Of a stretch of DNA of 64,000 nucleotides, positions 2,215 through 54,580 are shown one piece after another (within the stretch, counting starts at the first letter, position 1; each line of letters starts with the position of its first letter). Both the position numbers and the translations under genes were made by a program. The stretch covers positions 32,811 through 96,810 of the IMG/VR virus record IMGVR_UViG_3300036979_001044, one strand, 5' to 3'. The stretch comes from a virus. Under the pieces are notes generated by a model. That model was not told where the DNA came from and did not search any database. It saw only the letters and a list, made by a program, of their open reading frames with translations.

Positions 2215-4098
2215 TCAATCGGTCTCAGGCCCCATCGCCACCCATTGTCCGCTGTCGGTGCAGTAGAACAGGCGGAAGGTTTGGTAGACTCCTTGAAAGC
2301 GGACCTTGATGGTATCCTCGTTGACTGCGTTCCAGACGTTGGAAACTGAGCGGACGTGCGGGATGTAGCCAGGTCGCTTTTGATGGTCCTGCCCCATGCC
2401 TCTGTAGTCTGAGTCGCTATAGGTCTTCATGCGCCATGGAACAAGGAACAGTGCGCCCGTGGCTGCTTCTGGATGCAGGTCAACGCAGTTGAGGAAGTCA
2501 GTTTGTTTGTCGGAGACAACCCACTGGGCGTATTGAAAGTCGGCTTGCCATGGTTTGACGGACCCAAGTGGCTGGAAGCTGCTTACACCTGCGGAGCAGC
2601 GCCACTTGATGCGGTGGACCGGCATGAAGGGGGAGATGAAGACTCTGTCGTTGCGGGCTGAGTGCCACACGGTGGCGTTTCCGTACCCTACGCCCCCAAA
2701 TTGAACCGACTCCTCTCCACCAGAGGCGCCCTGTTGCGGTCCGACGTGGCATCGGATGGCCTCTCCGATTAAGGCGCCGGCCATGTAAGAGTAAGCTGTG
2801 CCGAAGTGAAGAGTCAGGACGTTGGTGACTTCGTTGACGTCTGTCACTAGCACGGGCTCGAAGATCGCCTCATCTGCGTCCAGTTGAGGCCAGGAGTTGG
2901 ACCCCCCTCCACCCGGGGCGCCCTGGTAGGTGTTGCTGACTTGGTTGCGGTTATTGTGCCAATCGGTACCCGGGTTGCAGGAGAGCAGCATGTACCGCCC
3001 ACCCTTGGTGAACAGGTTGGCGTCTGCTACTTTGATCTGTGTGGCTCCAGCGGCTATGTTGCCGTCTCCCGTTGAGGTGGCGGTAGTCATGTCTGTGCTG
3101 CCGAAGGGGGTGTAAAGGCCGACGTAGTTGACTAGGTAGTTGTTGTTGCCCATCATGCAGATGATGGCTACACCGTCTTTGGAGCCATAGAACCAGCAGT
3201 CTCTTGGCGAGGAGATCAGGTTGTAGCGCAGGCCTGGACATCTGCGGTTGGATACCCCGGCAAGGGTCTGGTGTCTGCTGGCCTGCGGGTGCATGGCGGG
3301 GGAGAGGATTTGGATGTGCTGCGCTCCAGGTGAGGTGAAGAAGGGTGTGTAGGAGGTAAGGCGTAGTTTGCCGGTTGTCTCGACTGTTTGCCCGGTAATC
3401 CAGCGCATCTTGCCGTCTGCTGTCTTCAGCAGGGAGCAGTAGTTGAGTTTGTTGTCGTCGTAGGTGGTGTTGAGGTCGCTGGAGTCCATCACGATGTCGT
3501 CGGTGCAGGCTGTGTCTCCAAGGGACCAGAGTACGGTGCCCGTGCTTGACATGAGCGGGTTGACCAGCTCTCTCAGGCCTGAGATGGTCGTTGTGGGGTA
3601 GCTGTTGGTGATGCGGACAGCTACGTCCTTTACGTCGTGTACGGCGGCGGTGGTGCCGTACATGCCTCTAACGCATGAGGTGAGCGTTGTGCCTATGACC
3701 CCTACCTGGATCAGCTCGTCGCCTATTTGGATGATTTCTCCGTTGGCCAGGTTGGGGATGGCGGCTTTGAGCGTGATTGAGGTGTCGGTTGCCAGGATGC
3801 CGGCGGCCAGGTAGGCAAGGTCTGGGCACCACCCTTGTGGTGACTGGATGCTCATGGTGCCAAGGTGGAGGGGGATGTTCTGGTTGCCGTCCTCCCCGTT
3901 GGACTTCAGGAACCAGCCCAGTATGTGGGCGTGTTTGTCGTCTTGGGCGATTCTGAGGGAGTCATCCCCACCGGGACCGTCGCGTGTCGGACTTGCTGGA
4001 TCGTGAATCCAGCCGCAGTCGGTGACGAGAAAATCTTTCAGCTTCTTTGCGAAATCAGCTGTCGAGTTGCACAGGACATGCTTGCCCTTGAAGGCCAT
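2215..4098 (-). CDS. Tail/baseplate structural protein, unknown family
   Basis: 627 residues from an ATG at 4098 behind GGAGGAGTGAGCC. No domain recognised. The composition is typical of a beta-rich virion protein: many Gly, Thr, Asn and aromatic residues, few Lys, no signal peptide and no membrane segment. An internal stretch around residues 105-140 (ANGEIIQIGDELIQVG, then SCVRGMYGTTAAVH) resembles the short 'gDE.i.v...t...v.RG..GT.a..H' motif seen in phage tail and baseplate proteins. It sits between the baseplate genes and the LamG proteins, so it may be a baseplate-fibre connector. That role comes from context only. Confidence 0.7.
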   Translation of the reverse strand: MAFKGKHVLCNSTADFAKKLKDFLVTDCGWIHDPASPTRDGPGGDDSLRIAQDDKHAHILGWFLKSNGEDGNQNIPLHLGTMSIQSPQGWCPDLAYLAAGILATDTSITLKAAIPNLANGEIIQIGDELIQVGVIGTTLTSCVRGMYGTTAAVHDVKDVAVRITNSYPTTTISGLRELVNPLMSSTGTVLWSLGDTACTDDIVMDSSDLNTTYDDNKLNYCSLLKTADGKMRWITGQTVETTGKLRLTSYTPFFTSPGAQHIQILSPAMHPQASRHQTLAGVSNRRCPGLRYNLISSPRDCWFYGSKDGVAIICMMGNNNYLVNYVGLYTPFGSTDMTTATSTGDGNIAAGATQIKVADANLFTKGGRYMLLSCNPGTDWHNNRNQVSNTYQGAPGGGGSNSWPQLDADEAIFEPVLVTDVNEVTNVLTLHFGTAYSYMAGALIGEAIRCHVGPQQGASGGEESVQFGGVGYGNATVWHSARNDRVFISPFMPVHRIKWRCSAGVSSFQPLGSVKPWQADFQYAQWVVSDKQTDFLNCVDLHPEAATGALFLVPWRMKTYSDSDYRGMGQDHQKRPGYIPHVRSVSNVWNAVNEDTIKVRFQGVYQTFRLFYCTDSGQWVAMGPETD

Positions 4099-4101
4099 GG
4101 C

Positions 4102-4338
4102 TCACTCCTCCACGGATGCAATATGGTCGTTGATTTGGGTAATGATGTCGAAGAGAAGTTCTCCATCGACGTTCTCGACTTGAAGTGGCTTGGCCAGCAT
4201 CTCCGCCGTGAGCGGAATCGAAAAAACGGTAGTTCCCTTGGAAGTCTCCAAGCTCGCATTGACGTGCGAAAGTCGCTCGGGAGGCGCAGTCGTAATTCTG
4301 GGAAGATTGAGAGTGATGGAGTGAATTTGGATTGGCAT
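4102..4338 (-). CDS. Small baseplate-module protein
   Basis: 78 residues, ATG at 4338 with AAGGA eight bases upstream. Its stop lies 3 bases before the start of the 627-residue protein. No domain recognised. The acidic C-terminus (DIITQINDHIASVEE) is probably helical and the N-terminal part looks beta-rich. A virion or assembly role is inferred only from its place between baseplate genes. Confidence 0.6.
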   Translation of the reverse strand: MPIQIHSITLNLPRITTAPPERLSHVNASLETSKGTTVFSIPLTAEMLAKPLQVENVDGELLFDIITQINDHIASVEE

Positions 4339-4401
4339 GCCCTGGTCCTTTCAAAAAATTTACTTTACCCAATTCAATATGGCCGACACGAATTCCCTTT
4401 C

Positions 4402-4821
4402 TCAACCAACAGATTTTTCTAGATCAACATCTCGGGCTCCGGTCAGATAATGCAACGGCAAAACTTTGCGCATCAAATAGGTCGCATCGGCGTACAGTCG
4501 TGGCCAGACATTAATCGACTCCATTAGCAGTTCCTGCTCCAGCGTCTCCAGATCGCTCACCACCAAAGAATAGGGAGTCCCAGAACCAGCCGAAGGGCGC
4601 AGATAAGGTGAATATGCTCGAATGATGCCCGCAGTAAAAGGGTAAAGGATATTTGTGCTACCCGGAATCCCGCTGTAGAGGGCTGGATCAAATGGCATCA
4701 TAGTATTCCCGATCCGAGCCCGGTAGCGGTGGTTGATCACAAACGTGCCGTAGACCTCCACCAGCACCCCTCCAGCTCCGGATAGGTTTGGATGAGAGAA
4801 TCCAGTCAACGTAAGTGCCAT
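4402..4821 (-). CDS. Baseplate-associated protein, unknown
   Basis: 139 residues, ATG at 4821 behind CTAGGAGACGG. No family recognised. Around the middle it has an aromatic, proline-containing segment (LYPFTAGIIRAYSPYLRP) and then an acidic helix. It is directly downstream of baseplate J, where phages often encode gpI-like tail proteins, but I see no gpI signature. Confidence 0.6.
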   Translation of the reverse strand: MALTLTGFSHPNLSGAGGVLVEVYGTFVINHRYRARIGNTMMPFDPALYSGIPGSTNILYPFTAGIIRAYSPYLRPSAGSGTPYSLVVSDLETLEQELLMESINVWPRLYADATYLMRKVLPLHYLTGARDVDLEKSVG

Positions 4822-4830
4822 ATCCGTCTC

Positions 4831-6243
4831 CTAGCTAATCACGATGTTTTCATCCGTAGTCCGTGCGATCTGATCGTCAAGCAGGATGATGTCAGTGCTG
4901 GGTGTTACCAGGTTCACGTTGTAGACCCCAGCAACGCTCATCACCTTCTTGATCAACATCGCCCGCAGCACGTCCCCGGAAATGCCCAGTGTATTGATGT
5001 AGTCGCGGATAGCGGTCTTGATTGTCGCACGTACCTCCGCATTATCGTAACCGTCAAGCACGGTAATGATTGCGTTTACCGTCTGGATAAGGACCTGGGG
5101 AGTTGTCACAATCACTAGCACTCCAGCTGCCCGGTACCCTGGATAATTCACGCGATCCGCGGCAACCCCGTCAATGATCTTCTGGGCCAACGCAATCAAC
5201 CCAGTGTACCGGGTATAATTCGCCGTGATGATCTCGCCAGTGACCAATGCTGGGTAAAAGACGATCTGACCCGAAGCAGGATTCAGCCAGAAATCTACCC
5301 CTCGATCCAGCATCCCACGATTGTTGCTCTCCAAAGTGAAAGTCACCGTCCCTTTGATTGCTATGTAGTTCAGGTTCAGCCGTGTTTCACCCCCAACCGC
5401 TGATCCGGCTGGAGGGCCAGAGAGCCCCTCGGTCACAATCTCGTCGACCACTTCCGCGGTAGACTCCGCCGCCCCAGTACCGTCGTCGATATAGACGGTA
5501 ACGAGCCCCGGATTCACGATGTCCTCTACCGCCTTTATGAACATGATGGTTGCGCCGGTATCCAGATCGACTGCCCCGCGCACCGCCTCTTCAATGGCTT
5601 CGATGGTCGAACGCCCCAGCGAAGAAACAAATCGCTTGATCCGATTTCGGAAACTGTCGTCGGTTTCCTTATCCGATCCCCAGGAGAAGGAGCTTGGGTT
5701 GGTGACACTGTCGACTCCCGCCGGGCGGGACACAAAGCGGATGATGGTCGAAGCTACCACGTTTCCAGAAATTCCAGGAAGCACCGCCTGGGTGGCGATC
5801 TGCCCGCTATCCTTCCCGACCCCATGCCCGCTGATCTGTTCTGGACTGGTGGGGGTGATGGTTCCAGAAACTGTGGTGATGAACTCAGTTCCTACCGATG
5901 TGCGAACCTTGGTCCCAAGCGGGATGGTCACCGTTCCGACCGTCGTATTTCTGGAAAATACCAAGAGCCCAGTCGACTTTGCCGCCGCATTTCTGGAAAT
6001 GAGTCCGGGTTGGATCTCTCGCGACCGCTCGTCCAGGTCCTCCCCAGTCGCGGTGTCGATGGAGAACACCTGGCGCAGCAGGTACATCTGGTAGGAGATC
6101 TCATCGAGCTGGCGCGCAGTAGCGGCAATGATGTGCTTGACGACCGAGGTGTCGGAGATATCCGAGAGTTTGGTGCGGGTGACTATCTTTGCAATCATCT
6201 GAGCCAGAAACTGCTCATAGCGCTTGGTGGTGAAAACCGGCAT
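4831..6243 (-). CDS. Baseplate J-like protein
   Basis: 470 residues, ATG at 6243 with AAAGGAGAGAGCG. It fits the baseplate J/gp47 family: an N-terminal helical part ending in DTATGEDLDERSREI, a beta-rich middle (GTVTIPLGTKVRTSVGTEF), the family-typical segment GSDKETDDSFRNRI, and a C-terminal part on polymerised loops. These proteins form the wedge ring around the hub in contractile tails. It follows the gp25/LysM gene, as in P2- and Mu-type baseplate clusters. A segment near residue 310 (VDFWLNPASGQIVFYP, then ITANYT) resembles the beta domain also found in the 282-residue protein at 23174-24022. Confidence 0.85.
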   Translation of the reverse strand: MPVFTTKRYEQFLAQMIAKIVTRTKLSDISDTSVVKHIIAATARQLDEISYQMYLLRQVFSIDTATGEDLDERSREIQPGLISRNAAAKSTGLLVFSRNTTVGTVTIPLGTKVRTSVGTEFITTVSGTITPTSPEQISGHGVGKDSGQIATQAVLPGISGNVVASTIIRFVSRPAGVDSVTNPSSFSWGSDKETDDSFRNRIKRFVSSLGRSTIEAIEEAVRGAVDLDTGATIMFIKAVEDIVNPGLVTVYIDDGTGAAESTAEVVDEIVTEGLSGPPAGSAVGGETRLNLNYIAIKGTVTFTLESNNRGMLDRGVDFWLNPASGQIVFYPALVTGEIITANYTRYTGLIALAQKIIDGVAADRVNYPGYRAAGVLVIVTTPQVLIQTVNAIITVLDGYDNAEVRATIKTAIRDYINTLGISGDVLRAMLIKKVMSVAGVYNVNLVTPSTDIILLDDQIARTTDENIVIS

Positions 6244-6254
6244 CGCTCTCTCCT

Positions 6255-8243
6255 TTAGACCGCAGCCTTCAGCATGAATATATCCGCAGATCCACGTACC
6301 GCCACCGTAAGGTCGGCGGACAAGGTATCGTCGGTTTGATCGAACGTTACATCCTCTATGGAACTGATCCGTGGATCAGCCCGTATCGCTTCGACGATCC
6401 GAAATCGAGCCAACTCGATATCGACTTCCGTGAATCCGAGTCCGACCACTCTCTGGAGTCCGACGTTCTTGTACAACGTATCAGTGCCTTTGTCGGTTAC
6501 CAAGCGTTGGAGTACAGCCTGCGTGATGTTGGCCTTGCCCTCAACGATCTTGGCGTCAACCGAACCCATCTCGGTGTTTACGGGGATATCGTAGCGCGCT
6601 CCATGTTCCCCGGTATAGCCTACCGCTACCTCCAGAGCCAGGTCTACCCCCAGGAGTTGATTCTCAGCTGGTTCGTCGAGTTGTACCCCAGCGACTGGAA
6701 GAATCGGAAGATCCAGGGTGGAGACCTGATTCGAGGGAATGAGAATCTTGGACCCGATCCCGAGCGCCTGGGGAAAGGGGCTGCTGTCCGCGCCACTAGC
6801 TGTTCCAGAAATACGGCTTCCCACCAGCGGGGCCGATGCCTGATCGTTGATGAAGGGCGGTTGCAGCCCATTCATCGTGGCAATGTGCTGCCAGAGCCGT
6901 GCATCCCCCAGGTGCTGGGCAGACAGCGACATGAGCGTGTCCCCCTGCCCGATGATCACCTGTTTGGCCGAGCGAAATTTGAATACCTGGCCGCCATTGA
7001 CAATCTCGCCGTCGATGGCGATTTCCTCCCCGGGAGTGAGCTTGCTGCCCCAGTTGCGCAGATCGGAGAAAGTCGAAGGCGCCGTCGACTGCCGCGCCTC
7101 CTCCCGGCGGTCCGCACTCACCCGACGGCGCATCTCCTGATAGCTGCGGATATCGTCCATGACCTTGTCGTGGCCGCGCTCCCACTTCGCGGGCGCAGTG
7201 CCCAGCCGCTCCAACCCATCTTGCACCTGGCGGAGCTTCTGCCGAGGGATCTCGGGAAAATCGAGAGTCGCATTGGTAGCATCCCGAAGATCTTTCGCGG
7301 AGCTTTCGATGGCCAGCGCGTTCTCCAGCATCTCGATAGTGGTTTCCAGAAAAGCGTAAGGGGCCTGGATGAGCGCGGTAGCTCCGTCCAGAAAATCCTT
7401 GGTCGCCTCCATGATGGTGTTGACGTTGTCCAGAATGGTGTTGATGTTGGCGATGAACAGCCGCACCTCATTGATCATCGAGGTCAGATCGTTTATCGCC
7501 CCCTGCACCCAGCTCACCGCTGATTGAATCCAAGCCATGATGTCCTTGAGCTTGTCGTAGAGGCTCTGGTCTTCGGAGAAGTCCGCCTTGGCGTCGGTGG
7601 CCGGGCCTACAGCGAGCAGCTCGATGTCGTAGCGGTAGAGCAGCGGCTGGCCGGAATCGCGGGTGAGCGTGAATCTCTGGGGCACTACTTCCCAATCCTC
7701 TTGGTCCCGCGGGTTGTGGAAAAAAAGTTTGGTGTCGGCGGAGGTCTCCGGGTTCTTCTTCAAATCTGCGTAGGTCCGGAAGACCGAATCCTGGAGGTAC
7801 TGGAAGTGGCGCTGTCCAGAAAGAGCGCCTATCCAGGTTTTTTGAAGCTCGCGAGAGTAGCTCCGGTCGGGAAGTTTCATCGAAGGGACCACGGTCTTCT
7901 TCAGCGGTAGGGTCCTCGGCCTCCAGCCGGTGTGCCCGGAGATCCGGATGGTGCGCTGGACGATGCCGTTCTCTTCGACATAAAGCCCGCCCCCTTGAGT
8001 CGGGGTCACCTCGACGGTAAAGGGTTCCTCCATGCTGTAGCTCTGCGGGGGCAGAACCAGGGGAAAAATGAAAACGGTATCCCCGGCGTTCATGGCCGTA
8101 GCGACCTTCGCAGGGATTCGAAGTTCGAAGTAGTAGAGGAGTTTCTTGATGAAGAAGTCGTCTTTGTTCTGGATCTGCCGGGTCATCTCCTTGAAGACCG
8201 CGATCGCTCCCCCCGCAGCCGCAGGAATATTAGGCAGTGCCAT
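6255..8243 (-). CDS. Baseplate protein with LysM and C-terminal gp25/W-like domains
   Basis: 662 residues, ATG at 8243 behind GAGGAGGCGCC. Residues ~60-220 look like the LysM-baseplate proteins that link tube and hub. A coiled-coil region at about 225-360 follows (INEVRLFIANINTILDNVN). A LysM motif lies at ~420-460 (IGQGDTLMSLSAQHLGD, IATMNGL). Residues ~550-655 look like a gp25/W wedge protein (LGFTEVDIELARFRIVEAI). Usually gp25 and the LysM protein are separate genes, so this is a fusion. It lies between the spike and baseplate J, which supports the call. Confidence 0.8.
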   Translation of the reverse strand: MALPNIPAAAGGAIAVFKEMTRQIQNKDDFFIKKLLYYFELRIPAKVATAMNAGDTVFIFPLVLPPQSYSMEEPFTVEVTPTQGGGLYVEENGIVQRTIRISGHTGWRPRTLPLKKTVVPSMKLPDRSYSRELQKTWIGALSGQRHFQYLQDSVFRTYADLKKNPETSADTKLFFHNPRDQEDWEVVPQRFTLTRDSGQPLLYRYDIELLAVGPATDAKADFSEDQSLYDKLKDIMAWIQSAVSWVQGAINDLTSMINEVRLFIANINTILDNVNTIMEATKDFLDGATALIQAPYAFLETTIEMLENALAIESSAKDLRDATNATLDFPEIPRQKLRQVQDGLERLGTAPAKWERGHDKVMDDIRSYQEMRRRVSADRREEARQSTAPSTFSDLRNWGSKLTPGEEIAIDGEIVNGGQVFKFRSAKQVIIGQGDTLMSLSAQHLGDARLWQHIATMNGLQPPFINDQASAPLVGSRISGTASGADSSPFPQALGIGSKILIPSNQVSTLDLPILPVAGVQLDEPAENQLLGVDLALEVAVGYTGEHGARYDIPVNTEMGSVDAKIVEGKANITQAVLQRLVTDKGTDTLYKNVGLQRVVGLGFTEVDIELARFRIVEAIRADPRISSIEDVTFDQTDDTLSADLTVAVRGSADIFMLKAAV

Positions 8244-42625: not shown

Positions 42626-45600
42626 TCACTTGTTCTTGTCCGATTTCAGCTTCTCGCTGATCCAGGCAACGATCTTATGCTGATCCACCGCGATGTACTC
42701 ATTGTAGAGGTGCCCGACTCCATCGCTCTCCATGATCTTGCGCAACTTGGCCAAGTTCTCCTCGGGCGTCCCGCCCTTCTTGCACACGGTACGATAGAGG
42801 ATAGCGGCACGATGGGACGTATCGAGCTTTTTGAACGTCGCCTCGAAATGCGCGATGCACTGGTCGTGGGTGTCTTTGTCTGGAATCCAATCACGCATCC
42901 GGAACTTGTAGTAGCGGCAGGAAAGAGAATCGTTTTGCGGCATGTCCTTGATCGGGATGGGCAGCCGCAGCACCTTGGCCTGGGCGTCGGCGATACCGCG
43001 ACCGGTCGGATCGACAATGACCTTGTTCTTCGGGTCGTAGTAGATGCTGTTGCAGGTGAAGTCGCGGCGCTCGAAATCCTTGCGCATCTCGTGGTCCACC
43101 CGAATGTCCGGCCACCACTTGCCGTTGACCGGGTTGGCGCACTGCTCGCCGTCCGCGGTCGTATAGGACACCATGCCTGTCAGGTCAATGCCCGGGCCAC
43201 TCTTGGTGGCACAAACAGTCATCCAGGCCTCGTCTCCAGGGGCCTTGCTAGTGATCCGCCTGTCCCCGGGCAAATCCGCACCAACTTTGTTGAAGCAAGT
43301 TTTCATCACCGTCGCGTCGGCCGTGGTCACCATATCGAAGTCCTTGAGCTTGGAGATCACCTTCTCATCGGTGATCTCACTTCCCTCTTGGACCAGATTG
43401 AGCAGATCGCGCACCGCGCCGCCAACCAGATAGGTCTCGCGGCCTCGTTCCCAGAGCCAATCGACGTACTCGGTTGGGGTGTGCGTACCCACCGCAGCGG
43501 TGGCCATCAACTCGTCCAGAATCTTCTGGTGCCGTTCATTGGGGCGGACGAAAGACTTTTCTGGAAGATCATGCACCGCTGACTTGTAGTGCTCGGGGCC
43601 CGCCTCATTGGACTTGAATCCCTTCCAGTCCTCGAAGTGCAGTTGCGTCGAGTGGTTCTTGTCGTGCGGGCCCTGGTAGTCCGGCCCAAAATCAACGATC
43701 GGATGCCCCGCTTGATCCGTGCCGATATACGTCCCCGGAATCTCCTGGCCCTTTACGATCGCAGTGAGCTTGGCGCCGTTTCTCATGTACCCCTTCAGCA
43801 CCTTCGGAACTTTCAGCTCGCTCTTGGGTACGAGCTGGATCTCGCCCACCCGCTCGACTTTCGATGGAGCAAAAACGGTATCCGCCTTCACCTTCAGCGC
43901 GGGCGCCTGGGCGGGTTTGGGCTTTCCCGGCTTCTCCGCCTTTTCTGGAAAGACCGCCAGCGGATCGGCGTTCTCAATTTTCTGGAATAGATCGCGACTC
44001 ACCGTGATCCGGTTGTAGGTCGGGCCGGGCTCAATGGATGCCTCAATCTGGAAATGCTTCCGCAGCTGCTCGATGACCCCCTTGTGCCCGGGAGCGAACT
44101 TCAGCACCACCAGATCAGGATCGGTGTGGTGCGGGCGCAAATGCCCATCCAGGTACGTCATGAGTCGCGCGGTCCAGCCCGGTTCCTTGGTCTGTCCACC
44201 GTTGCGGAAGTAGATGGGCGTGTTGCCATCCCAGGCGACGATCTTACCTCCGCGGGGCCCAGTCGCGATGATGGCGGCCATCGACTTCTCCAGGTCAGCT
44301 TTGTCCTGGGGGCGGAGCGCTACCTTGGCGGTGTTGCCGATGACGTAGCGCCTACGCTCTTCGGTGCCCTCCCTCGCTGAGTCCTGCCCGGTCACCGCCG
44401 CGTCGGGCAAAACGATCGGGTAGACGTTACGCAGAGGCTCGGTGACCGTGTAGATCTCCTTGTCCCGCTTCAGTCCCTCGGCGACCTCTTCCTCCTCATC
44501 CTTCCAGTCGCGGAGCAAGTCAGCCGGATCGATGTGAGGATTGGGACCTTTTTCTGGAACGCGCCGCTTGGGGGTCTCGACCAGGTAATTGGCCGCGGTG
44601 CCATGGCCGCCCGCGCGATTGCCCGCCTGGCTGGTGGCCGCGCCGATGTCCGCCGATACCTGCCCGCCCTTGCCCAGCCCGGATAGCGGGATGACCAATC
44701 GGAGCTTGGGCGACTCCTCGGCGCTCTGCACCCGGGTGAGCCCCACCCAGCGCTTGAAGGCCTCGATGTCCATGGGGTTGGTCTGGAGGAAGAACTTCTC
44801 CGGCCGGTCGTAGCTCAATCCGTAGGCGCGCTCGGCATCCTCCTGATTGGAGAAGCCCAGCATGCACTTCTGCTCGTCCCAGATGCCGGTCTCGGGATTC
44901 TGCTGCTCGATGACGTAGGCCATCTCGGAGTCGGGGTCAGGGCCGATGAACACGTCGAGAGGATCATCGTCGGCGCCGGTGGTGCCCAAGATCTCCCCGT
45001 AGGCGTGCAGCATCCAAGTCTTGTCGGTGCCCCCGTCCGGGGTGTGAAAGGTCCGCGAGGTGCCCTTTGGGTTCTCGATGTGGATGGGCAATCCCCAGAG
45101 ATGCACCAGCTGCTCGCCACTGGAGAGAGCCTTGCGCAGATCGTCTTCGCGCAGGAGCGCGCGCATGAGCGCCTCCTCGCTCTTGTAGACCTTGCCGCCC
45201 TTGCCCCCGGGCACCAACTCCCCCTCCTTGTTGAAGCCGTAACCGTCTGGAATCCTTAGTAATTGACAAGAACAATGCGGATGGATCGTGCCGATGACCG
45301 CTTGCCACTCGGCGGTCTTCTTGCCCACGTTGGTGCCGTTGGCTACCAGGGTCGAGAGCGGGAAGATGCGCGGGTTGCCGTCCGGGCCGTTGTAGAGCCG
45401 GTCGCAGTGCTTGCAGTTATGCACTGCTAACCCATTGGCAAAATAGCTCTCGTCTTCCTCCACTTCCAGATTGAACACTTCACCTGTGAAAGGAACCACA
45501 GCAATGCTGTTGACTCCTCTGGCATAGAACGATATAGGCTGCGCATGAACCGTAGACGCAATATTCCCAAATCCGAATTGATTCGACTCTGGAAAACCGG

Positions 45601-46954
45601 AAAACATACGATTGGGTCTTTGGGGCGGCACTTTCAAGCCGGCAGTACCACAATCAAACGCCGCTTCCGTGAATGGGATATCCCCATACCCAGCCGAACC
45701 GAAAGCCAGATCGCCAACTTGCGCAGAATGACCCCCGAACAAAGAAAAGCCCTCACCGAGAATGCGCGTAAAGCGCGTAAACTGGCATGCAGCCCAGCTG
45801 CGCAGCATGCCAAAGCTCTGACCAATCAGCGCACCCAGCGCTCGGTTACTCCCACCACCCAAGCCTTGGCCAAAAGACTCGCAGCGTTCCATCCCGTACT
45901 TGAATTCGCTTTCGATAAATTCAACATCGACATTGCTATCCCGCATCTGAAGATAGCGATAGAGGTAGACGGCGGGGGGTGGCATTACACGGGAGCCGTC
46001 CGTAGACGAGATCAAATCAAAGAGCTTCTCCTCTGGGAGCAAGGCTGGATCGTGTTGCGCGTTCCCGACAGTTGCGCAGACCAAGTAATCGCCGCAGTGA
46101 ATCGAATCAGCGCGCCGCCAGTTCATATTAACTAGGAATGGATGATTTTCTGTAGCATAGGGTTTCTGCCCATCAATCCCGATCAGTTTTCCAGAAAAAT
46201 GACGCTGAAAAGCGTGGGTCACCTTCCGCCAGCGCAGCTTATGGGTGAGCACCTCTTCCCCGATACGCACCTGCTCGATGGGAATTTCCCCGCTACGGGT
46301 GTGCACCAACGTGCCCGCGGTAAAACAAGCATCCGGCATTACCCGCTTTGCAACCAGGGCCTCCTCACCGTAGCGCTTGGCGATGTGGTCGGCGAGCCCG
46401 GTCTGCATGGCGGTCTGCTTCTCGGTGACCGCGATGCGATCCCAGTCGCGGGTCCAGTCCTCGCTCGCCCAGCCGAGGTCGCTCTTGAGCTGCTTCGCCG
46501 TCTCGCGCTTGGCGATATTCTGGGCGGTCTTGTCCCGCACAACGCGCTCCAGCTTGGCGCGGAGCTTGGCGTCGGCCTCGATGAGGATGTTGCCGGTCTG
46601 CTGGTTGACCTTGTTGCCCAGGCCCTTCAGGTAGCCAGCGGCGCTGAGCTGGGCGAACTTCACCGCCCGCTGCTCGGGGACCGAGAGCGGGATAGGGTTC
46701 TTGCGAACGTATTTCTGGAAAGCGTCGAAGCTCATGTTGGCCGTGGCCTTGTTCTGGAGAATTCCCAAGAGCTGGCCGTAGAGGTAGGCCTGCTCCACCG
46801 AATTCAAGTGCCCCTCGATGAGCCCAGCCTGCTCCAGCTCCGTCAAAACCCCGGGGTCAACCGCCTCCGGGCCGATGGCCGAGACGATGAAGGCGTTGTG
46901 GTGCTTCTCCACGATCTTCTGGACTTTCTGGAGTTGCTCGGGGGTCAATAGCAT
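42626..46954 (-). CDS. Minor head (MuF-type) protein fused to InPase-like and CCA/polyA-type nucleotidyltransferase domains, with intein
   Basis: 1442 residues including a 304-residue intein (210-513). Residues 1-209 plus ~514-575 form a MuF/SPP1 gp7-like minor head domain (VTEKQTAMQTGLADHIAKRY; CKHCDRLYNGPDGNPRIF; HPHCSCQLLRIPDGYG). Residues ~620-740 match the pyrophosphatase-like domain of phage polyvalent proteins (GADDDPLDVFIGPDPDSEMA). Near 900 lies IATGPRGGKIVAWDG. Residues ~1165-1400 carry class II nucleotidyltransferase motifs: YLVGGAVRDLL, LKDFDMVTTAD, FERRDFTCNSIYYDP. ATG at 46954 with AGAGGTGAGG. Minor head proteins are packaged in few copies, so the attached enzymes may be delivered into the host. 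Activity is inferred. Confidence 0.8.
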   Translation of the reverse strand: MLLTPEQLQKVQKIVEKHHNAFIVSAIGPEAVDPGVLTELEQAGLIEGHLNSVEQAYLYGQLLGILQNKATANMSFDAFQKYVRKNPIPLSVPEQRAVKFAQLSAAGYLKGLGNKVNQQTGNILIEADAKLRAKLERVVRDKTAQNIAKRETAKQLKSDLGWASEDWTRDWDRIAVTEKQTAMQTGLADHIAKRYGEEALVAKRVMPDACFTAGTLVHTRSGEIPIEQVRIGEEVLTHKLRWRKVTHAFQRHFSGKLIGIDGQKPYATENHPFLVNMNWRRADSIHCGDYLVCATVGNAQHDPALLPEEKLFDLISSTDGSRVMPPPAVYLYRYLQMRDSNVDVEFIESEFKYGMERCESFGQGLGGGSNRALGALIGQSFGMLRSWAACQFTRFTRILGEGFSLFGGHSAQVGDLAFGSAGYGDIPFTEAAFDCGTAGLKVPPQRPNRMFSGFPESNQFGFGNIASTVHAQPISFYARGVNSIAVVPFTGEVFNLEVEEDESYFANGLAVHNCKHCDRLYNGPDGNPRIFPLSTLVANGTNVGKKTAEWQAVIGTIHPHCSCQLLRIPDGYGFNKEGELVPGGKGGKVYKSEEALMRALLREDDLRKALSSGEQLVHLWGLPIHIENPKGTSRTFHTPDGGTDKTWMLHAYGEILGTTGADDDPLDVFIGPDPDSEMAYVIEQQNPETGIWDEQKCMLGFSNQEDAERAYGLSYDRPEKFFLQTNPMDIEAFKRWVGLTRVQSAEESPKLRLVIPLSGLGKGGQVSADIGAATSQAGNRAGGHGTAANYLVETPKRRVPEKGPNPHIDPADLLRDWKDEEEEVAEGLKRDKEIYTVTEPLRNVYPIVLPDAAVTGQDSAREGTEERRRYVIGNTAKVALRPQDKADLEKSMAAIIATGPRGGKIVAWDGNTPIYFRNGGQTKEPGWTARLMTYLDGHLRPHHTDPDLVVLKFAPGHKGVIEQLRKHFQIEASIEPGPTYNRITVSRDLFQKIENADPLAVFPEKAEKPGKPKPAQAPALKVKADTVFAPSKVERVGEIQLVPKSELKVPKVLKGYMRNGAKLTAIVKGQEIPGTYIGTDQAGHPIVDFGPDYQGPHDKNHSTQLHFEDWKGFKSNEAGPEHYKSAVHDLPEKSFVRPNERHQKILDELMATAAVGTHTPTEYVDWLWERGRETYLVGGAVRDLLNLVQEGSEITDEKVISKLKDFDMVTTADATVMKTCFNKVGADLPGDRRITSKAPGDEAWMTVCATKSGPGIDLTGMVSYTTADGEQCANPVNGKWWPDIRVDHEMRKDFERRDFTCNSIYYDPKNKVIVDPTGRGIADAQAKVLRLPIPIKDMPQNDSLSCRYYKFRMRDWIPDKDTHDQCIAHFEATFKKLDTSHRAAILYRTVCKKGGTPEENLAKLRKIMESDGVGHLYNEYIAVDQHKIVAWISEKLKSDKNK
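45510..45538 (+). promoter_or_regulatory. Candidate sigma70-type promoter of the nested endonuclease
   Basis: TTGACT (45510-45515), 17-base spacer, TATAGG (45533-45538). Start of transcription would be expected at about 45544-45546, that is at the ATG at 45545, which would give a leaderless mRNA. No good ribosome site precedes that ATG. The promoter lies inside the codons of the intein's Hint C-terminal part. Confidence 0.5.
45545..46135 (+). CDS. Vsr/EDxHD-type homing endonuclease, antisense inside intein
   Basis: 196 residues, ATG at 45545, TAG at 46133-46135; the only plus-strand gene accepted here. Residues ~8-48 look like a helix-turn-helix (SELIRLWKTGKHTIGSLGRH). Residues ~120-180 carry the Vsr-like nuclease core: FNIDIAIPHLKIAIEVDGGG, then WH, RRRDQIKELLLWEQGW, IVLRVPD. 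The whole gene lies within the intein and each codon is the exact complement of an intein codon. None of its 15 Leu codons is TTA/CTA and none of its 9 Ser codons is TCA, which keeps the intein frame open. It lacks the genome's common 8-mer. Presumed to cut intein-free alleles and drive homing. Confidence 0.85.
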   Translation: MNRRRNIPKSELIRLWKTGKHTIGSLGRHFQAGSTTIKRRFREWDIPIPSRTESQIANLRRMTPEQRKALTENARKARKLACSPAAQHAKALTNQRTQRSVTPTTQALAKRLAAFHPVLEFAFDKFNIDIAIPHLKIAIEVDGGGWHYTGAVRRRDQIKELLLWEQGWIVLRVPDSCADQVIAAVNRISAPPVHIN

Positions 46955-47476: not shown

Positions 47477-48791
47477 GATACTGCTCACCCCACTGTGCGG
47501 TATCGATCTGCATCTCGGCAAGGGCTTTGCGCACCCAGAGGGGCAGCTGCTTCCCCTCTCGGCGCGCGGCCGAGACCTCCGCGTAGCACTCGTGGGGGTT
47601 GGTCGCCGCGTAGTCGGAGATCTGGGACATGATCTCGTTCTTGTGCTGCTTCAGCTGGGGTACGCAGTGCTTCTTCCAGATCTCCCAACAGGAGAGCTTC
47701 GATCCCTTCGCAAACAGGTGCCGGAGCACAAACCCCTCGACGTGCCCGCACTCGTGGCGGATGGTCGAGATAAGCCCATGGCCAGTCGTGAAGTGGCTGT
47801 CCCCTTGAGTCGCCTTGGCGTAGCCCTCGTTGAAGTAGTCCGGGCCGACTACCATCACCGATCGCTGGTAAGGCTTCTGGTCGTAGGGATGCGCGACCGC
47901 AATGGCCGATCCCCCAAGCGGGCACTGCTGGGTGAGATCGATCGGATGCTTTCCAGAAAGTGCGATGTGGTTCTCCTCCGGATGCGCCTTGGCCCACTTC
48001 TTCAGCTGCTCGGGCGTGCCCAAGAAGTGCAGATGAGCAACCACCAACGGATGCTGCTCGCTCAGGGCCTTGTTGGCGGCGTTCGCTGTCGCCAGGTCCG
48101 GATAGCGGACTGCCAGGTGCGGCAGATGCTTCGCAGCCCAGCCGTGAGCTTCTTCCAAAGACTCAGCAGCTCCGGTGAAGTGGTCGACAAGCTGATGCTT
48201 GGGCCTAGCGGTACCGGGGACAGATCCCGATACCGGGTCTGGTTCAGCTGGTGCCGGGGGCGCCACTTTGGGCGATGCCACTTCTGGCGTCTGATTTTTC
48301 GCCGCTGCTTTGAATTCATGTCCCGCTCCTGGAGTGAAACTCTTCGGCAGCATGAGCAACAGGTACTTCCCGCCGGGGATGATCGGCGCCTCGATGTGCT
48401 CGCTCTGCTTGAAGGCGGCGAGTGCCGCGGCCTGGGCGTGAGGGATCTTCACCACCACGAGTCCGGGGTTCGACTTGTGCGGCACCACCTTCCCGCCCAA
48501 CTGCGCCGCCCAGCTGTCGAGCGCCCCGCTCAGCCGCTCAGGGCTCCAGTGCTGGGTGTGCTCGGGGTCCGCCCAGAGCCCGCCCTTGGGGCCAACGAAG
48601 GGACCGGACTTCTCCAGCTTCAGCGACTCGTAGGGCGGGGTTTTGTCTTCACGTAGCCGCTGCTCCTCCCAGTACTTCTCGGGGTTCTTCTGGGACTCGT
48701 CGAACCCCTGCCCGAACAGCTCGCGGATTCGCTTTTCGTCTTTGGGGTCGACCTTCAGATCCACCCCGGTCCTGACCGGCTTCTCGCTCAT
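47469..48791 (-). CDS. Virion-type protein with HECGH metallopeptidase-like domain
   Basis: 440 residues; ATG at 48791 in a 4-base overlap (ATGA). Residues ~45-68 hold the shared module SGPFVGPKGGLWADPEH. Residues ~80-140 and ~230-270 are two related small alpha/beta units (PHKSNPGLVVVKIPHAQAAA; PHLAVRYPDLATANAANKAL). Residues ~340-355 contain TIRHECGHVEGF, an HExxH zinc-peptidase motif. The C-terminal part (SDYAATNPHECYAEVSAARR) has further His/Glu that could serve as the third ligand. It may act on virion proteins, host wall or host proteins. Confidence 0.65.
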   Translation of the reverse strand: MSEKPVRTGVDLKVDPKDEKRIRELFGQGFDESQKNPEKYWEEQRLREDKTPPYESLKLEKSGPFVGPKGGLWADPEHTQHWSPERLSGALDSWAAQLGGKVVPHKSNPGLVVVKIPHAQAAALAAFKQSEHIEAPIIPGGKYLLLMLPKSFTPGAGHEFKAAAKNQTPEVASPKVAPPAPAEPDPVSGSVPGTARPKHQLVDHFTGAAESLEEAHGWAAKHLPHLAVRYPDLATANAANKALSEQHPLVVAHLHFLGTPEQLKKWAKAHPEENHIALSGKHPIDLTQQCPLGGSAIAVAHPYDQKPYQRSVMVVGPDYFNEGYAKATQGDSHFTTGHGLISTIRHECGHVEGFVLRHLFAKGSKLSCWEIWKKHCVPQLKQHKNEIMSQISDYAATNPHECYAEVSAARREGKQLPLWVRKALAEMQIDTAQWGEQYHG

Positions 48792-51700
48792 GCTCCACCC
48801 CAAATTCTGGAACCGGCCGTGGCTCCAGACACGATGTGCGGCGGCAGCTCAGCCGCCTTGCTCTGGATGTACTGCATGGCCTGGCCGTAGAGCGCGTCGG
48901 CGTCTACCGAAAGCGCCTCTGGGGGCATCTGGTCCAGGAATTGCACCGGGTCGCCCTTCTTGGCCTTGGCGAAGACGAACGTCGCCTTGTCCTTGTTCTT
49001 GCTATGAAAAGCGGAGAAGTTCTTGGCCCCGTGGGCGTAGCTGTCGGCGAACAGCCGGGCGTCGACCATGCGCCCGATGCTCTTTGCTCGATCCACCGCC
49101 CCGGGCCAAGTGGTCATCGGATCAGCGGACACAAACAGAAAAACTGGTTTGATTCCGCGCTTCTCGCACTCCTCCATCAACCAAGGATTCTCCGTCCCGT
49201 TTTGCTCGCCGGCCGCATCCCAAGTTGCCGCTACGCTCTGGGCCAGCTCGGGGCGCGCACCCAGCGCCGAGCCCTTCCCCCCAGCCACCCCACCGCTGGT
49301 GACCAGGATCTTCCGCTCGCCCTCGGGCATCTTGGCGATCTCGTCCAGCCGTTTCATGAAGGCGCGCTTGACCACCGCGTTAGCCGTCTGGTGGAGCGCG
49401 GTGTTGTACAACGCCCGGGCCTGGGCGCGATCGGGATGGATGGGCTTGCCCTTCTCGTCCGGGGGCAGATCGGGCCGGGTCCACTCAGGCATCATGCTCT
49501 TGGCCGCGTCGGTCTCGAAAATGAAGTTGTTCTTCTTGACCACGTCGTAAAAGGCGGAGGCCATCCCATCGGAGTCCGCCTCGAAGGCATCGGCGAACTT
49601 GCCCTCCACCGCCCGCTCCTCCGCGGTCAGGTTGGGCAACCGGGGAATGGTGGGCGGCGGAGCGACGGTCTTGCCCGGCAGTCCCACCCTAGCCGCGTCG
49701 GCGACCCCATCCCCATCAGCGTCGACCATGGGATCAACCTGGTAGGCCAGCGGGTCTCCGCCCGCCGGCGGGGTGAGCCCGGCCTGCGGGGCCCGGGGAG
49801 CGCTCTGCATCTGGGGCGCGATCTGCGCCGCCGGAGTCGGGGCGCCCATCTGGGGCGGGGGTTGCGGGGTCTGCGCCTGGGGAGTTGGGGCCGGTTGCGC
49901 GCCAGCTCCGCCCCCAGTCCCTTCCTCGGTCCAAGGAATGGTGTGCTCCGGGTCCGCCCACTTGCCGCCCCGGGGCCCGATAAACATCCCGGCCTTGAAC
50001 AGCGAGAGCTGCGCGCTCTCGGATTCGTCCAGTTCCAGAAAATCGTCCAGAGACTTCTGGAACAGCAGATCCTTCACCTTCTGCTTGTCGACCGCGACCA
50101 GGTGGTATTGCCCACCCTCAAAGGTCGGCTCGGCGATTCCATATTTCTGGAGCTGGGCCAGCGCCTCGGTCGCATGCTTGGGGACCTTGACCATCACCTT
50201 GGTCGGGTCTCCGTAATGCTCCTTGATCTTGATACCATGCTCTTGGATGAATCCAGAAAATGCCTGGGCCGGCACAGACCCCTGCTCAGGCGTTAGCTTT
50301 GGTGCCGGCGCCGGCTCAGGCGTAGCAACCGCAGGTTTAGCCTCCGGGGCCTTCTCGGGCGCAGCTGTTGGCTCAGGAACATACGCAGGAGCCGGCGCGG
50401 GCTTCTTCCCCGCAGATACCGCAGTATCCACAGCTTTGGCCCCCATTTGCACATATGCTTCTTCCGATGCCAGGTAGCCCTTCTTCTTTCCGCCCTTCCC
50501 CTCCCAAGCCCAGAAGACATCGCCACCGATTTCAACTTTGGTGAACGACTGCCCGTACCCCAGATGGATTGTTGTTCCCGCTGCAAGCGAATTCAGCTTT
50601 CCAGAATATTCCGCCGTGATCGTGTCAGTATCTTTCTGCGCTTGCTCCAGCGAAGCTGCAATGCCGGCGGGGTCTACAACATAGGGAGTCGCAGACTCCT
50701 TCTTGACCTCCGCAGCTAGCTTGTCAAACATCTCCACGGTCAGCGGCTTGTCCACCCCGGAACTGGGCGAAGGAACTCCCTGCCAGGGCACCTCGACCAC
50801 CGTCGCCGAACCAGGCAAGATCTCGGTGCCAGCCGTTTGCGGCTCGGGCAGGTTGGGGGCTAGCTCGGGGTGATCCATGTCCGACAAAGCTGGGACCTGC
50901 GAAGTCGCAGCGCTCTCCGCGCCACCGCCCGCCGTGGGCCCGGCGACCTTGCCGTGGATCTGGGTGAGCAGTTCATCCACGGATATCGGCTTGCTCATCC
51001 ATTCCATCTCCGCCGCGGTGAGCTGCTTGCCTTGCGTGAGCTTCTGCCCCAGCTCGTACTTGCGCCGCAAAATGTCGTTCACGTTCTCGTCGAAGAGATT
51101 GCCCTCGGCGGTCATCCAGTAGACGTTGACCGCGTTCTTCTGCCCAATGCGATGGGCGCGATCCTCCGCCTGCCTGACATCGGCCGCCGTCCAGGGCATG
51201 TCATTGAAGACAACCTTATCGGCCGCTGTCAGCGTCGCACCAACGGCCATGGATTGACGGGTTGTCACAAAGACACGCTTCTCACCGATGAAGTTGCCAG
51301 CCTCATCCTTTTTCTGGAACTCCTTCTTGGCCGCTTCACGGGCGTCATCCTGCATCTGCCCGTGATGCAGGATAGCCAGGTCGCCGAACTTCTCGGCGAT
51401 AGCCTTGGCCGCCTCGACCGAATCGCTGAATACGATGACCTTGGAATCGGAGGTATCGAGGATTTCCTGCACCATCGACTCGGTGACCGGAACCTTGCCC
51501 TTGGCAATCTCAGCCTTGAGCTTAGAAAACGCCCCAATCGTATTCTGCTCTCCCATGTCGGGTAGACCAGGGACTGGGTGCTTGACGATCGACGTGGTCT
51601 TTTCTGGAAGGTCTTTGAGCACCGCGGTCTTCTGCCGGGCGATGTAGACCTCGTGCATGTCCATCCAGAGCCCGCCGATGGGTGCGGTCTTGATCGCGTT

Positions 51701-54580
51701 CTTGGTGAACTTCCCTGGCGCCACCATTTCCAGCTGGGTGAATAGCTCCTCCTTCTTGTTCTTCACCGCCGTTCCAGAAAGCAGGATGTGGTGCTTCATC
51801 CCCGCGCCTATTTTCTGAACTGTTTGAGTTTGTTGTGCTTTTTGAGATTTAATTCTGTGGCTCTCGTCGATCACGATGGTGTCGAACCCGGCCGCGGCGA
51901 TAGTCGCCTCGAACTTGGCCAGCGACTCGTAGTTGACCGCCGCGATGTTGATTCCAGAAAGGTCGGGAACCTTGCCCTTCTTTAGATCAGCGGCGACCAG
52001 CTCCACCCCATGAAAGTAGTTGGGAAAGAACTTCTCGGCCTCCTCCAGCCAGTTGCGCCGAACGACCTTAGGACAGACAACGAGCACGCGCTTGTCGTTC
52101 TTCGCCGCCCAGGCAAGGGTCTGAATGGTGTTGTGGGTGACCACATGCCCTTGCACAATGAACGTGCTCTGGAGCGACTCGACCGCGATGCAACGCATCT
52201 CCTCCTCGCGCTCGCTCGGGCAGATATCCACGATGGCCCGGGCCAAGCTCGACGCCTCCCAGTGCTCGGCCTTGCGCTCTAACGAGTAGGGGTTGAACGC
52301 CGCGCGGATGTTAACCCGGTAGCTCGGTAGCCCGATGCGAGTCTCGCCGTTATGCTGATAGCGCGGAGCGCGCTTGATCGAGAGCGAAGCGATCGCCCCC
52401 AGCGATCGGGCAAGAAAGATGACATCGTTTGCCAAACGCCTGGACGAGGTGCTGTAAATGCAGCAAGATCCAATCGGAGTATCCCCATCAGTGTCCATGA
52501 GCCCGGCAAGCAACTGCTCACGTTCCTCAATCGAAGCGTAGAGGTATCTTTCTGGAATGAACTTTTCTGGAGAGAGACAACCTTGCAAGCCCAACTCACG
52601 CAAGCTGTCGAGCACCGGATTCTTTCCGTTGATTCCAGAAATTCCCCACGTCGGACAATCGCCCTCCCCAACCTTGCGGGGAACCACAACGCAACCGGCG
52701 GGCAGTAACGCCGCCACCCGCTCAGTGATCTCCATGTCCGGTTTCGTCCAACTCACCGAAGTACCCCCGATTGCCCCATCACCGATGAGCACACCCAACA
52801 CGTAGGGGTCGATCGGCAACTCGCCGCGATACTCAAACTCCTGGGGCAACGCCACCGGTAGATACCAACGGTATTGGCCCTTGCCGTGCCCAGTACGCAT
52901 CCCTTCTTCCAGAAGCTGGGCGGTGGTGCGGACCTTGCCTTCGTTCTCCCGAAAGCGATCCATCGCAGTGTAGACATGCCAGAGGTGCTCGGCGTCGCAC
53001 TCGACTACTTCCCCGTCGCGGGTCTTGACCGCCCAAACCTTGCGCTGGCCCTGGGGATAGACCCCGGATACCCGCACCGCAGCACCGGTCACCGGATCGA
53101 TGACCTCATCGCCCACCTGCAAGTCCCCGAACCGCCTCCAACCCTTTGGGGTCAACGTAAGTGTTTGATTTACTAGCGCTTTACCAAGACCCATTTCGTC
53201 GCCGATGAGCGCGTTGCCGTTGGCCTTGTCCAGAAAACGCACGCACTCGTTCTGGAAGGACATGAGCTTCAGGTCAGGGCCGAGCTTGGCCTGCACCTCG
53301 GGGATGGGCTTTTGCAATTCAGCGATATCCTGATCGCGCTTGATCCGCGCTTCCTTCACCCCGTGGGTCATGATCTGCCACTTGGGGAAGAGCACGGTGA
53401 GCTTGCCTATCGCCTCCTCGGTCAGCTCCAGATCGAAGGTCTCGCGGGCGTGCGTGACCGGGTTGTACTTGGTGATTCCAGAAATCTGCCCACCCTTGTT
53501 CGTGAAGAGGGTGTTGAAGGCTGGCGCGTAAGGCGCGTAGAACTCGAAGATCCCGTCGGGTCGCTGGCGCACCACGATCACGTCGGTGACCTGGTGAGCG
53601 TTGATGCCCTTGATGTACTCCTCGATCTTGTCCCCGGTGAGTGCCTCGCCCGCAGTGGGCCCAGTGGCCTTTGCCGGGGTGCCGAGGGGTTCCAAAACCT
53701 CGATGCCGAACTTGGCCATGTCCTTCTTGTAGGCGGCGAAGTCGAAGCTGGCCAACTTGAGCTTGCTGATCGCGAAAGCCTTCTTGTTGCCGTCGTAGAT
53801 GCCGCCATACTTTTTCTGGACCTCGCAGTACTCCTTGAAGTCGTTCTTGAGGAAACCGTTGAGCGGCAAGTAGAGCGAGCCGAAGGTGTCGTGGTACTGG
53901 GGCTGGATGCTGAAGCCAGAAGTCTTGGGCTTCTCGACCAGGTGCAGCCCGCACTTGAGGTAAGCCTCTGCCCCGAAGTGGGAAGCGATCTGCCCCTTGT
54001 ACTTCTTCAGCATGTTCTTCATTCCAGAAATGTTGCCGCGCACCGAATGCCAGTAGCCGAAGTCGTAGTGGTTAAAGCCGGTGTCGTCGATGACATTGTG
54101 CATCCCGTGCTGCATAGCGTAGAGCGCGTCGCCGATCTCGATGAGCTTGTCCTTCAGCTCGGCCTCGGGGTAGGGGACGATCTGGGGCGCCTCCGGCTCG
54201 GGTGCCTGGCGACTGACCGGTTGATCTCCAGTCCAGTGGATGGTGTGAGCCGAATCAGCCCACTTGCCCCCGTGCGGCCCGATGAAGAGCGCCTTGCCGA
54301 ACGGTTCCCCCTCCTCCTCCGCTGCTCCGATTCCTCCGATGACCACGTCTGCTATCTCCTGGAGCATGAGGTCCAGTTGGTGGGCGTACAGCTCGCGGGT
54401 TCGCGCGGCCAGCTCCTGGAGCACCGGATACTTCAGCTCCTGCTCCTTCTTGGGCAGAGCCTTCTCCAGCATCTCCGCTATTTCTGGAACTTCGCTGGAC
54501 AGCATCTCGCCCAGCCGTTCCAGGAGCTGCCCCGACTTCTCCCGGATTTCCTCCGGGCTTGCCTGAAGCTCCAACCGCAT
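48788..54580 (-). CDS. SNF2-type helicase fused to a zeta-like kinase, with class 3 intein
   Basis: 1930 residues (1580 after splicing). ATG at 54580 with AGAGGAGAGCG. N-terminal helical part, then FIGPHGGKWADSAH (~residue 93). SNF2 core from ~450: P-loop GDEMGLGK interrupted by the intein (468-817), then TIQTLAWAA, DESHRIKS (DEAH box), LLSGTAVKN, and in the second lobe QAEDRAHRIGQ. Several small repeated units and a second FIGPRGGKWADPEH (~1530) follow. Residues ~1650-1925 resemble zeta-toxin kinases (SGGVAGGKGSALGARPEL; MVDARLFADSYAHGAKNF). Helicase of SMARCAL1 look. Probably packaged; remodelling of host or phage DNA and a kinase acting on a small substrate are inferred. Confidence 0.8.
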   Translation of the reverse strand: MRLELQASPEEIREKSGQLLERLGEMLSSEVPEIAEMLEKALPKKEQELKYPVLQELAARTRELYAHQLDLMLQEIADVVIGGIGAAEEEGEPFGKALFIGPHGGKWADSAHTIHWTGDQPVSRQAPEPEAPQIVPYPEAELKDKLIEIGDALYAMQHGMHNVIDDTGFNHYDFGYWHSVRGNISGMKNMLKKYKGQIASHFGAEAYLKCGLHLVEKPKTSGFSIQPQYHDTFGSLYLPLNGFLKNDFKEYCEVQKKYGGIYDGNKKAFAISKLKLASFDFAAYKKDMAKFGIEVLEPLGTPAKATGPTAGEALTGDKIEEYIKGINAHQVTDVIVVRQRPDGIFEFYAPYAPAFNTLFTNKGGQISGITKYNPVTHARETFDLELTEEAIGKLTVLFPKWQIMTHGVKEARIKRDQDIAELQKPIPEVQAKLGPDLKLMSFQNECVRFLDKANGNALIGDEMGLGKALVNQTLTLTPKGWRRFGDLQVGDEVIDPVTGAAVRVSGVYPQGQRKVWAVKTRDGEVVECDAEHLWHVYTAMDRFRENEGKVRTTAQLLEEGMRTGHGKGQYRWYLPVALPQEFEYRGELPIDPYVLGVLIGDGAIGGTSVSWTKPDMEITERVAALLPAGCVVVPRKVGEGDCPTWGISGINGKNPVLDSLRELGLQGCLSPEKFIPERYLYASIEEREQLLAGLMDTDGDTPIGSCCIYSTSSRRLANDVIFLARSLGAIASLSIKRAPRYQHNGETRIGLPSYRVNIRAAFNPYSLERKAEHWEASSLARAIVDICPSEREEEMRCIAVESLQSTFIVQGHVVTHNTIQTLAWAAKNDKRVLVVCPKVVRRNWLEEAEKFFPNYFHGVELVAADLKKGKVPDLSGINIAAVNYESLAKFEATIAAAGFDTIVIDESHRIKSQKAQQTQTVQKIGAGMKHHILLSGTAVKNKKEELFTQLEMVAPGKFTKNAIKTAPIGGLWMDMHEVYIARQKTAVLKDLPEKTTSIVKHPVPGLPDMGEQNTIGAFSKLKAEIAKGKVPVTESMVQEILDTSDSKVIVFSDSVEAAKAIAEKFGDLAILHHGQMQDDAREAAKKEFQKKDEAGNFIGEKRVFVTTRQSMAVGATLTAADKVVFNDMPWTAADVRQAEDRAHRIGQKNAVNVYWMTAEGNLFDENVNDILRRKYELGQKLTQGKQLTAAEMEWMSKPISVDELLTQIHGKVAGPTAGGGAESAATSQVPALSDMDHPELAPNLPEPQTAGTEILPGSATVVEVPWQGVPSPSSGVDKPLTVEMFDKLAAEVKKESATPYVVDPAGIAASLEQAQKDTDTITAEYSGKLNSLAAGTTIHLGYGQSFTKVEIGGDVFWAWEGKGGKKKGYLASEEAYVQMGAKAVDTAVSAGKKPAPAPAYVPEPTAAPEKAPEAKPAVATPEPAPAPKLTPEQGSVPAQAFSGFIQEHGIKIKEHYGDPTKVMVKVPKHATEALAQLQKYGIAEPTFEGGQYHLVAVDKQKVKDLLFQKSLDDFLELDESESAQLSLFKAGMFIGPRGGKWADPEHTIPWTEEGTGGGAGAQPAPTPQAQTPQPPPQMGAPTPAAQIAPQMQSAPRAPQAGLTPPAGGDPLAYQVDPMVDADGDGVADAARVGLPGKTVAPPPTIPRLPNLTAEERAVEGKFADAFEADSDGMASAFYDVVKKNNFIFETDAAKSMMPEWTRPDLPPDEKGKPIHPDRAQARALYNTALHQTANAVVKRAFMKRLDEIAKMPEGERKILVTSGGVAGGKGSALGARPELAQSVAATWDAAGEQNGTENPWLMEECEKRGIKPVFLFVSADPMTTWPGAVDRAKSIGRMVDARLFADSYAHGAKNFSAFHSKNKDKATFVFAKAKKGDPVQFLDQMPPEALSVDADALYGQAMQYIQSKAAELPPHIVSGATAGSRIWGGA
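52130..53179 (-). mobile_element. Class 3-type intein with LAGLIDADG endonuclease in the SNF2 P-loop
   Basis: 350 residues from Ala1 (ALVNQTLTLTPKGW) to Asn350 (GHVVTHN), with Thr+1 of the host protein (TIQTLAWA). There is no Cys or Ser at position 1. It has the WCT set of class 3 inteins: Trp67 in block B (EHLWHV), Cys330 in block F (MRCIAVESL), Thr348 in block G (VVTHN). Two LAGLIDADG-type motifs are present (LGVLIGDGAIGG; LLAGLMDTDGD). The insertion splits GLGK|T of the P-loop. Unlike the other intein it contains three copies of the genome-wide 8-mer. Confidence 0.88.

Follow-up and report, generated by a model that had tools for sequence, protein, structure and literature searches.

The window analysed here, a 64,000-nucleotide stretch of a phage contig, carries a mobile intein whose homing endonuclease is very probably a separate and complete gene on the opposite strand, set in exact codon register with the intein, and not a domain of the intein itself. 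Inteins and homing endonucleases are well known, but in the literature examined we found no nuclease that is encoded fully antisense to its own intein and overlaps the conserved blocks. With this layout, a selfish element would fit two proteins into the length of DNA that one requires. An earlier sequence-only reading of this DNA had described the dual coding of one Hint segment with the end of the nuclease. That observation is correct but understates the case, as the architecture recurs as a mobile element.

Table 1. Features of the intein locus, in window coordinates.
Feature	Position	Strand	Details
Host gene, 1442 aa	42626-46954	-	MuF-like by insertion-site context (DA^CKHC ... HPHCSC); InPase and PolyA_pol domain matches
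Intein, 304 aa, Cys1 ... His-Asn/Cys+1	45416-46327	-	Host protein aa 210-513; blocks read from sequence
Antisense homing endonuclease (predicted), 196 aa + TAG	45545-46135	+	N-terminal HTH, helical linker, PD-(D/E)XK Vsr/DUF559-like core (NID129..AIE140VDGGGWH), last helix 178-189
Intein filler, residues 90-259	45551-46060	-	Antisense shadow of nuclease; predicted disordered
Dual-coded segment: intein 73-83 ADSIHCGDYLV (-) / nuclease 179-189 DQVIAAVNRIS (+)	46079-46111		Codon-by-codon pairing
Nuclease stop TAG (46133-46135) opposite intein Leu65; block B ATENH (residues 58-62) just beyond	46133-46156		Codon pairing

The minus frame is shown to hold a complete predicted Hint splicing domain, with blocks A, B, F and G, within a phage head-gene polyprotein. 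It matches the Pfam families Intein_splicing (1.1e-8) and Hint_2 (6.1e-8) as well as TIGR01443, the model of the intein C-terminal region (3.7e-7), and its splicing residues are C1, T59 to H62 (the TxxH of block B) and N304/C. In the AlphaFold2 (AF2) model of the intein, for which the alignment leaves out two phage inteins (L004 and L007), the Hint domain has a pLDDT above 90 at residues 1-89 and 260-304. This Hint part superposes on the Mtu RecA mini-intein 2in0 over 127 residues (VIA-align; Z 18.3, rmsd 1.7). The host gene is a single ORF in which a putative MuF-like part is fused with an inorganic pyrophosphatase domain (Pfam InPase, 1.3e-33) and a poly(A)-polymerase-head domain (PolyA_pol, 1.9e-14). 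Compared with PHROG, the host protein of the window gives a weak head-morphogenesis match (E 0.67), and its assignment otherwise comes from the Cys-motif context; the host genes of relatives are annotated as head morphogenesis or MuF-like.

The plus frame is shown to encode a predicted HTH followed by a Vsr/DUF559-like nuclease in which the conserved acidic core residues are intact, Asp129 and Glu140 being predicted to be catalytic. DUF559/MTES_1575 is the closest Pfam assignment (MTES_1575, 6e-7, below the curated cut-off; DUF559, 4e-4), and profile matches in the PDB comprise 3hrl (1e-7) and 3r3p, the catalytic domain of I-Bth0305I (3e-6). The AF2 model has a mean pLDDT of 92 and a final helix at residues 178-189. 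When it was used as a Foldseek query, the best match was again 3r3p (probability 1.00, E 8e-3), followed by Vsr, with no match at E<=0.001. Part of the model for the anti-phage protein ProA (NF058533) is matched by the nuclease domain as well (4e-6, far below cut-off), which probably reflects a shared DUF559-like domain. The start of the window nuclease has only a weak ribosome-binding site (TATAGG), and a search of the nuclease strand for sigma-70-like promoters gave none, either in the window or in LSPA1.

Relatives were collected from IMG/VR and one genome collection with the nuclease alone as query, and their layout was read with profiles for blocks A-B, blocks F-G and the nuclease. The antisense-in-intein layout, in the same codon register, was present in 87 of 87 loci and in 23 of 23 further ones, for a total of 110 loci with 91 distinct inteins, most of which are inserted at MuF-like sites of head genes. 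In all intein-bearing loci the nuclease lies on the strand opposite the intein and never forms an in-frame intein domain. Two loci were retrieved without a nuclease match (L124 and L125) and two with a free-standing nuclease (L015 and L108). The insertion site is usually HPx^C; it is DA^C in the window and in L009. In L057, one host ORF (3186-6428, minus strand) appears to carry two inteins, as judged from two IN and two IC matches.

Nuclease matches also occur in about 100 cultured phage records, including phages of Salmonella, Gordonia, Pseudomonas, Klebsiella, Vibrio and Acinetobacter, where they fall within head morphogenesis or hypothetical genes. The layout itself was checked in six cultured records (Salmonella, Shigella, Gordonia and Pseudomonas phages and relatives) and in further Salmonella-group loci. 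The annotations examined miss the nuclease, except that in one record a 402-base antisense hypothetical protein is listed within it. The antisense-nuclease intein is a widespread phage element overlooked by annotators, and many phage head genes annotated plainly or as hypothetical are predicted to carry an unannotated mobile nuclease. The 91 distinct inteins represent a large natural set for measuring evolution under complete codon-register dual coding. A cellular reservoir was considered and rejected: a scan of 84,980 genomes yielded only three relatives, all of the antisense-in-intein type.

The two frames are in codon register, with plus position 1 paired to minus position 3, so that plus and minus codons are exact complements one to one. 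In the long-IN form, which is that of the window, the nuclease usually stops opposite block B (residues ~55-75), and in the short-IN form it continues toward Cys1; the stop lies opposite residues 61-75 in 15 of the 91 distinct inteins. Long-IN members group together in the nuclease tree, with free-standing nucleases among them. One of the latter (L015, 3441-4106, plus strand) neighbours a MuF-like gene that lacks an intein and is encoded on the other strand; the second (L108, 2764-3459, plus strand) lies near a portal-like gene. Both are possible ancestors or escapees.

The closest relative found for the window, L009, is only 44% identical in the nuclease protein and thus too distant for silent-site tests, so that two close pairs of the window's subclass and 13 gapless Salmonella-group phage sequences were used. 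In these 13 sequences, omega of the exteins is 0.17 in the host frame and about 0.93-0.98 in the opposite frame. This order is reversed in the nuclease body, where omega is 0.23 (interval 0.16-0.32) for the nuclease reading and 0.66 (0.43-1.04) for the intein reading. The codon position that changes fastest also switches between the two regions, the counts for nuclease position 3 vs 1 being 131 vs 55 in the body and 156 vs 626 in the exteins. Together, these rates show purifying selection on the nuclease frame throughout its body in Salmonella phages.

In most relatives, block F faces the start signals of the nuclease (ribosome-binding site and ATG) and block B faces its tail. Dual coding goes further in the short-IN form. 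There, the nuclease starts with an ATG complementary to the His codon of the block F sequence 'GHVYDLQ', and the Shine-Dalgarno sequence GGAGGT is the complement of the block F Asp-Leu codons. The Leu codon is CTC, the complement of GAG in the Shine-Dalgarno sequence, in 47/57 vs 12.8 expected. Short-IN relatives such as L020, L034 and L078 also have an intein motif, [DN]FHGDG..GxVDVV, opposite the active-site strands of the nuclease with its invariant Glu, and this motif is conserved at intein codon positions too. Both the start signals encoded in block F and the motif are absent in the window. It is tempting to speculate that we are dealing with two complete and mutually constrained genes, in which the nuclease would run on its own schedule from a ribosome-binding site and start built into block F, and the filler of most members would have an intein function of its own via [DN]FHGDG..GxVDVV; we give this fuller reading somewhat less than an even chance. 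The antisense layout as such could uncouple expression of the nuclease from that of the late structural gene. Just upstream of the nuclease ATG, L050, L107 and L118 have a palindrome, AATAGCGCTATT (one base different in L050), which is the complement of intein SAIV codons.

The segment singled out in the sequence-only reading was said to pair intein residues 73-83 codon by codon with nuclease residues 179-189 near the C-terminal helix, and this pairing is confirmed at the positions given in Table 1. Based on the AF2 models, it comprises the Hint turn 73-75 and the strand 81-87 on the minus strand and the last helix of the nuclease on the plus strand, which bears out that the overlap extends beyond filler. 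Relatives in which the nuclease ends before the Hint segment had been named as evidence that would count against this reading; there are none among the 91 distinct inteins, in all of which the nuclease covers it. In the free-standing relatives, the protein also terminates at this helix or close to it and lacks the extra tail seen in the short-IN form. Thus, the helix is probably native to the nuclease and the tail of the short-IN form probably overprinted, so that two natively conserved elements would be superposed; the proposed tie between the two genes is conserved.

The further claim that the overlap limits drift of both proteins is supported in part. In the strand-wise rate comparison of the homologous segment of Salmonella phages, constraint was detectable in the intein frame only (omega 0.36, interval 0.13-0.91), the value for the nuclease frame being 1.27 (0.41-8.9). 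When 62 diverse nucleases are compared, the D, G, L and A of the intein reading are conserved in the segment and the nuclease first positions are variable. In a comparison of nine pairs the segment is balanced (39 vs 31) and the body stands at 608 vs 408. Silent rates of the exteins were rejected as a control for the segment because they would be unfair, given that a mobile intein may have a younger history than its exteins.

A segment frozen by strong mutual constraint, where neither protein tolerates change, would agree with the native look of the nuclease helix, at which the free-standing relatives also end. It would likewise agree with the intein-silent changes in two close long-IN pairs, which amount to 10/30 in the segment vs 70/116 in the non-overlapped intein (P = 0.013) and are weak evidence of mutual constraint there. 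Nevertheless, we consider it unlikely, because the nuclease first positions vary widely across the family and because purifying selection on the nuclease reading of the segment is not detectable in Salmonella phages, albeit with a wide interval. Taking these data together, we infer that the Hint reading is the dominant constraint on the segment and that the nuclease helix tolerates what Hint gives.

Alternatively, the nuclease might be a free-standing homing endonuclease lodged in a mini-intein to which it is not tied, the overlap in the segment being incidental. Capture is a plausible origin in view of the free-standing relatives L015 and L108, but an untied nuclease is improbable, since each of the 91 distinct inteins has the overlap through this Hint segment in an identical register, start signals are built into block F and the long-IN subclass is grouped on the nuclease tree as well.

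Still less probable is that the intein is a relic, with selection acting on the nuclease alone and the minus frame kept open by accident or drift. The state of the filler would be compatible with this, since it has no recognisable fold in the window and a pLDDT below 50 in the AF2 model (residues 90-255 and 257-259). Against it stand the invariance of Cys1, the block B TxxH and the terminal Asn across the aligned inteins of relatives, the low intein-frame omega over the parts that overlap Hint, and a host frame that is open in every complete locus.

Within the window alone, 1.5 antisense stops are expected and the probability of finding none is about 0.2, so that the open antisense frame is not improbable in itself. 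The reality of the nuclease ORF follows from homology, structure and recurrence and not from the openness of its frame in the window; a chance open frame, which the window alone permits, is ruled out by homology and the family data. In 74 distinct nucleases, the codons TTA, CTA and TCA, which correspond to antisense stops, were observed 0 times vs 374 expected. Per-locus tests of this kind disregard the shared ancestry of the related loci, and the P values printed for them are therefore too small and overstate significance. The fixed register is explained by the fact that only in this phase can antisense stops be avoided by synonymous choice (TTA and CTA for Leu, TCA for Ser), together with common descent. 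Even though long open frames often arise antisense to coding frames in GC-rich DNA, it is scarcely credible that the plus ORF is such a by-product and the intein alone real. The ORF matches a nuclease family and has the predicted fold and the conserved core residues of a nuclease, and omega of the nuclease frame is near 0.2 in relatives; moreover, some relatives come from genomes with as little as 38% GC, where none of the 15 expected antisense stops is seen.

Mobility of the intein with its antisense nuclease is best followed in a gene of the Guernseyvirinae (Salmonella/Escherichia). A 272-aa intein is located at HPN^C in LSPA1, and ER18 and K1ind1 are intein-free, with nearly identical exteins. 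Of 505 phage records that match the query, which includes the intein, 70 cover 80% or more of its length; among the others listed, most align as two extein pieces. These empty alleles at the exact splice site (LSPA1 vs ER18 and K1ind1) show apparent mobility of the intein family, that is, at the family level and not for the window's own gene. We propose that translation of the host protein continues through the antisense filler, which would form a disordered loop, and that the Hint domain would splice itself out of the precursor. The nuclease would be made from an opposite-strand transcript and cut intein-free alleles near the insertion site, whereupon repair would copy intein and nuclease together.

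Several known systems share individual features with this element. In canonical inteins containing a homing endonuclease (LAGLIDADG, e.g. PI-PfuI), an endonuclease-coding region likewise interrupts Hint between blocks B and F, and the element is mobile at the exact splice site. There, however, the nuclease is an in-frame domain of the spliced intein, whereas in the present case a separate gene overlaps Hint blocks from the opposite strand. Antisense homing endonuclease genes have been described in nuclear group I introns (Didymium Dir.S956-2, I-DsqI; PMC9548176), where the gene also lies opposite a splicing element. By contrast, the Dir.S956-2 intron acts as RNA and is non-coding, so that no protein dual coding arises; it lies in eukaryotic rDNA, and the nuclease is of the His-Cys family (PMC9548176). 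Hidden HNH insertions of the ShiLan type in phage methylases resemble the present case in that a homing nuclease is encoded out of frame and the host frame is kept open; they differ by being on the same strand in a shifted frame, by their HNH family and in that no splicing domain was found (PMC11855218), whereas here the nuclease is antisense in an intein. I-Bth0305I and other EDxHD (Vsr-like) homing endonucleases (3r3p) have a related catalytic fold. Such enzymes are associated with mobile introns and with split inteins (Dassa 2009, cited in PMC12350094); we found no report of one in antisense position inside an intact intein, which is the position seen here.

An intein in the capsid morphogenesis protein of phages Snoke and LSPA1 was noted previously, along with an intein-free relative (PMC6776784; UPWr phages, PMC8425127). 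It is of the same family and at the same site as the one studied here (LSPA1 being L005), and these papers mention no antisense endonuclease (PMC6776784, PMC8425127). Likewise, we found no description of an antisense endonuclease in an intein in the literature; actinobacteriophage inteins of 'non-canonical architecture' are the subject of a preprint by Gosselin, Arsenault and Gogarten (2025; 10.1101/2025.01.02.630785, cited in PMC11855218), which could cover the Gordonia cases.

The window itself offers a contrast to the antisense nuclease. A second intein resides in an SNF2-like helicase gene (48788-54580, minus strand), where it occupies the Walker A site, starts at GK/ALVNQ, ends at VVTHN/T and is class-3-like. 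Its endonuclease is an ordinary LAGLIDADG enzyme in sense orientation (Hom_end, 1.2e-6).
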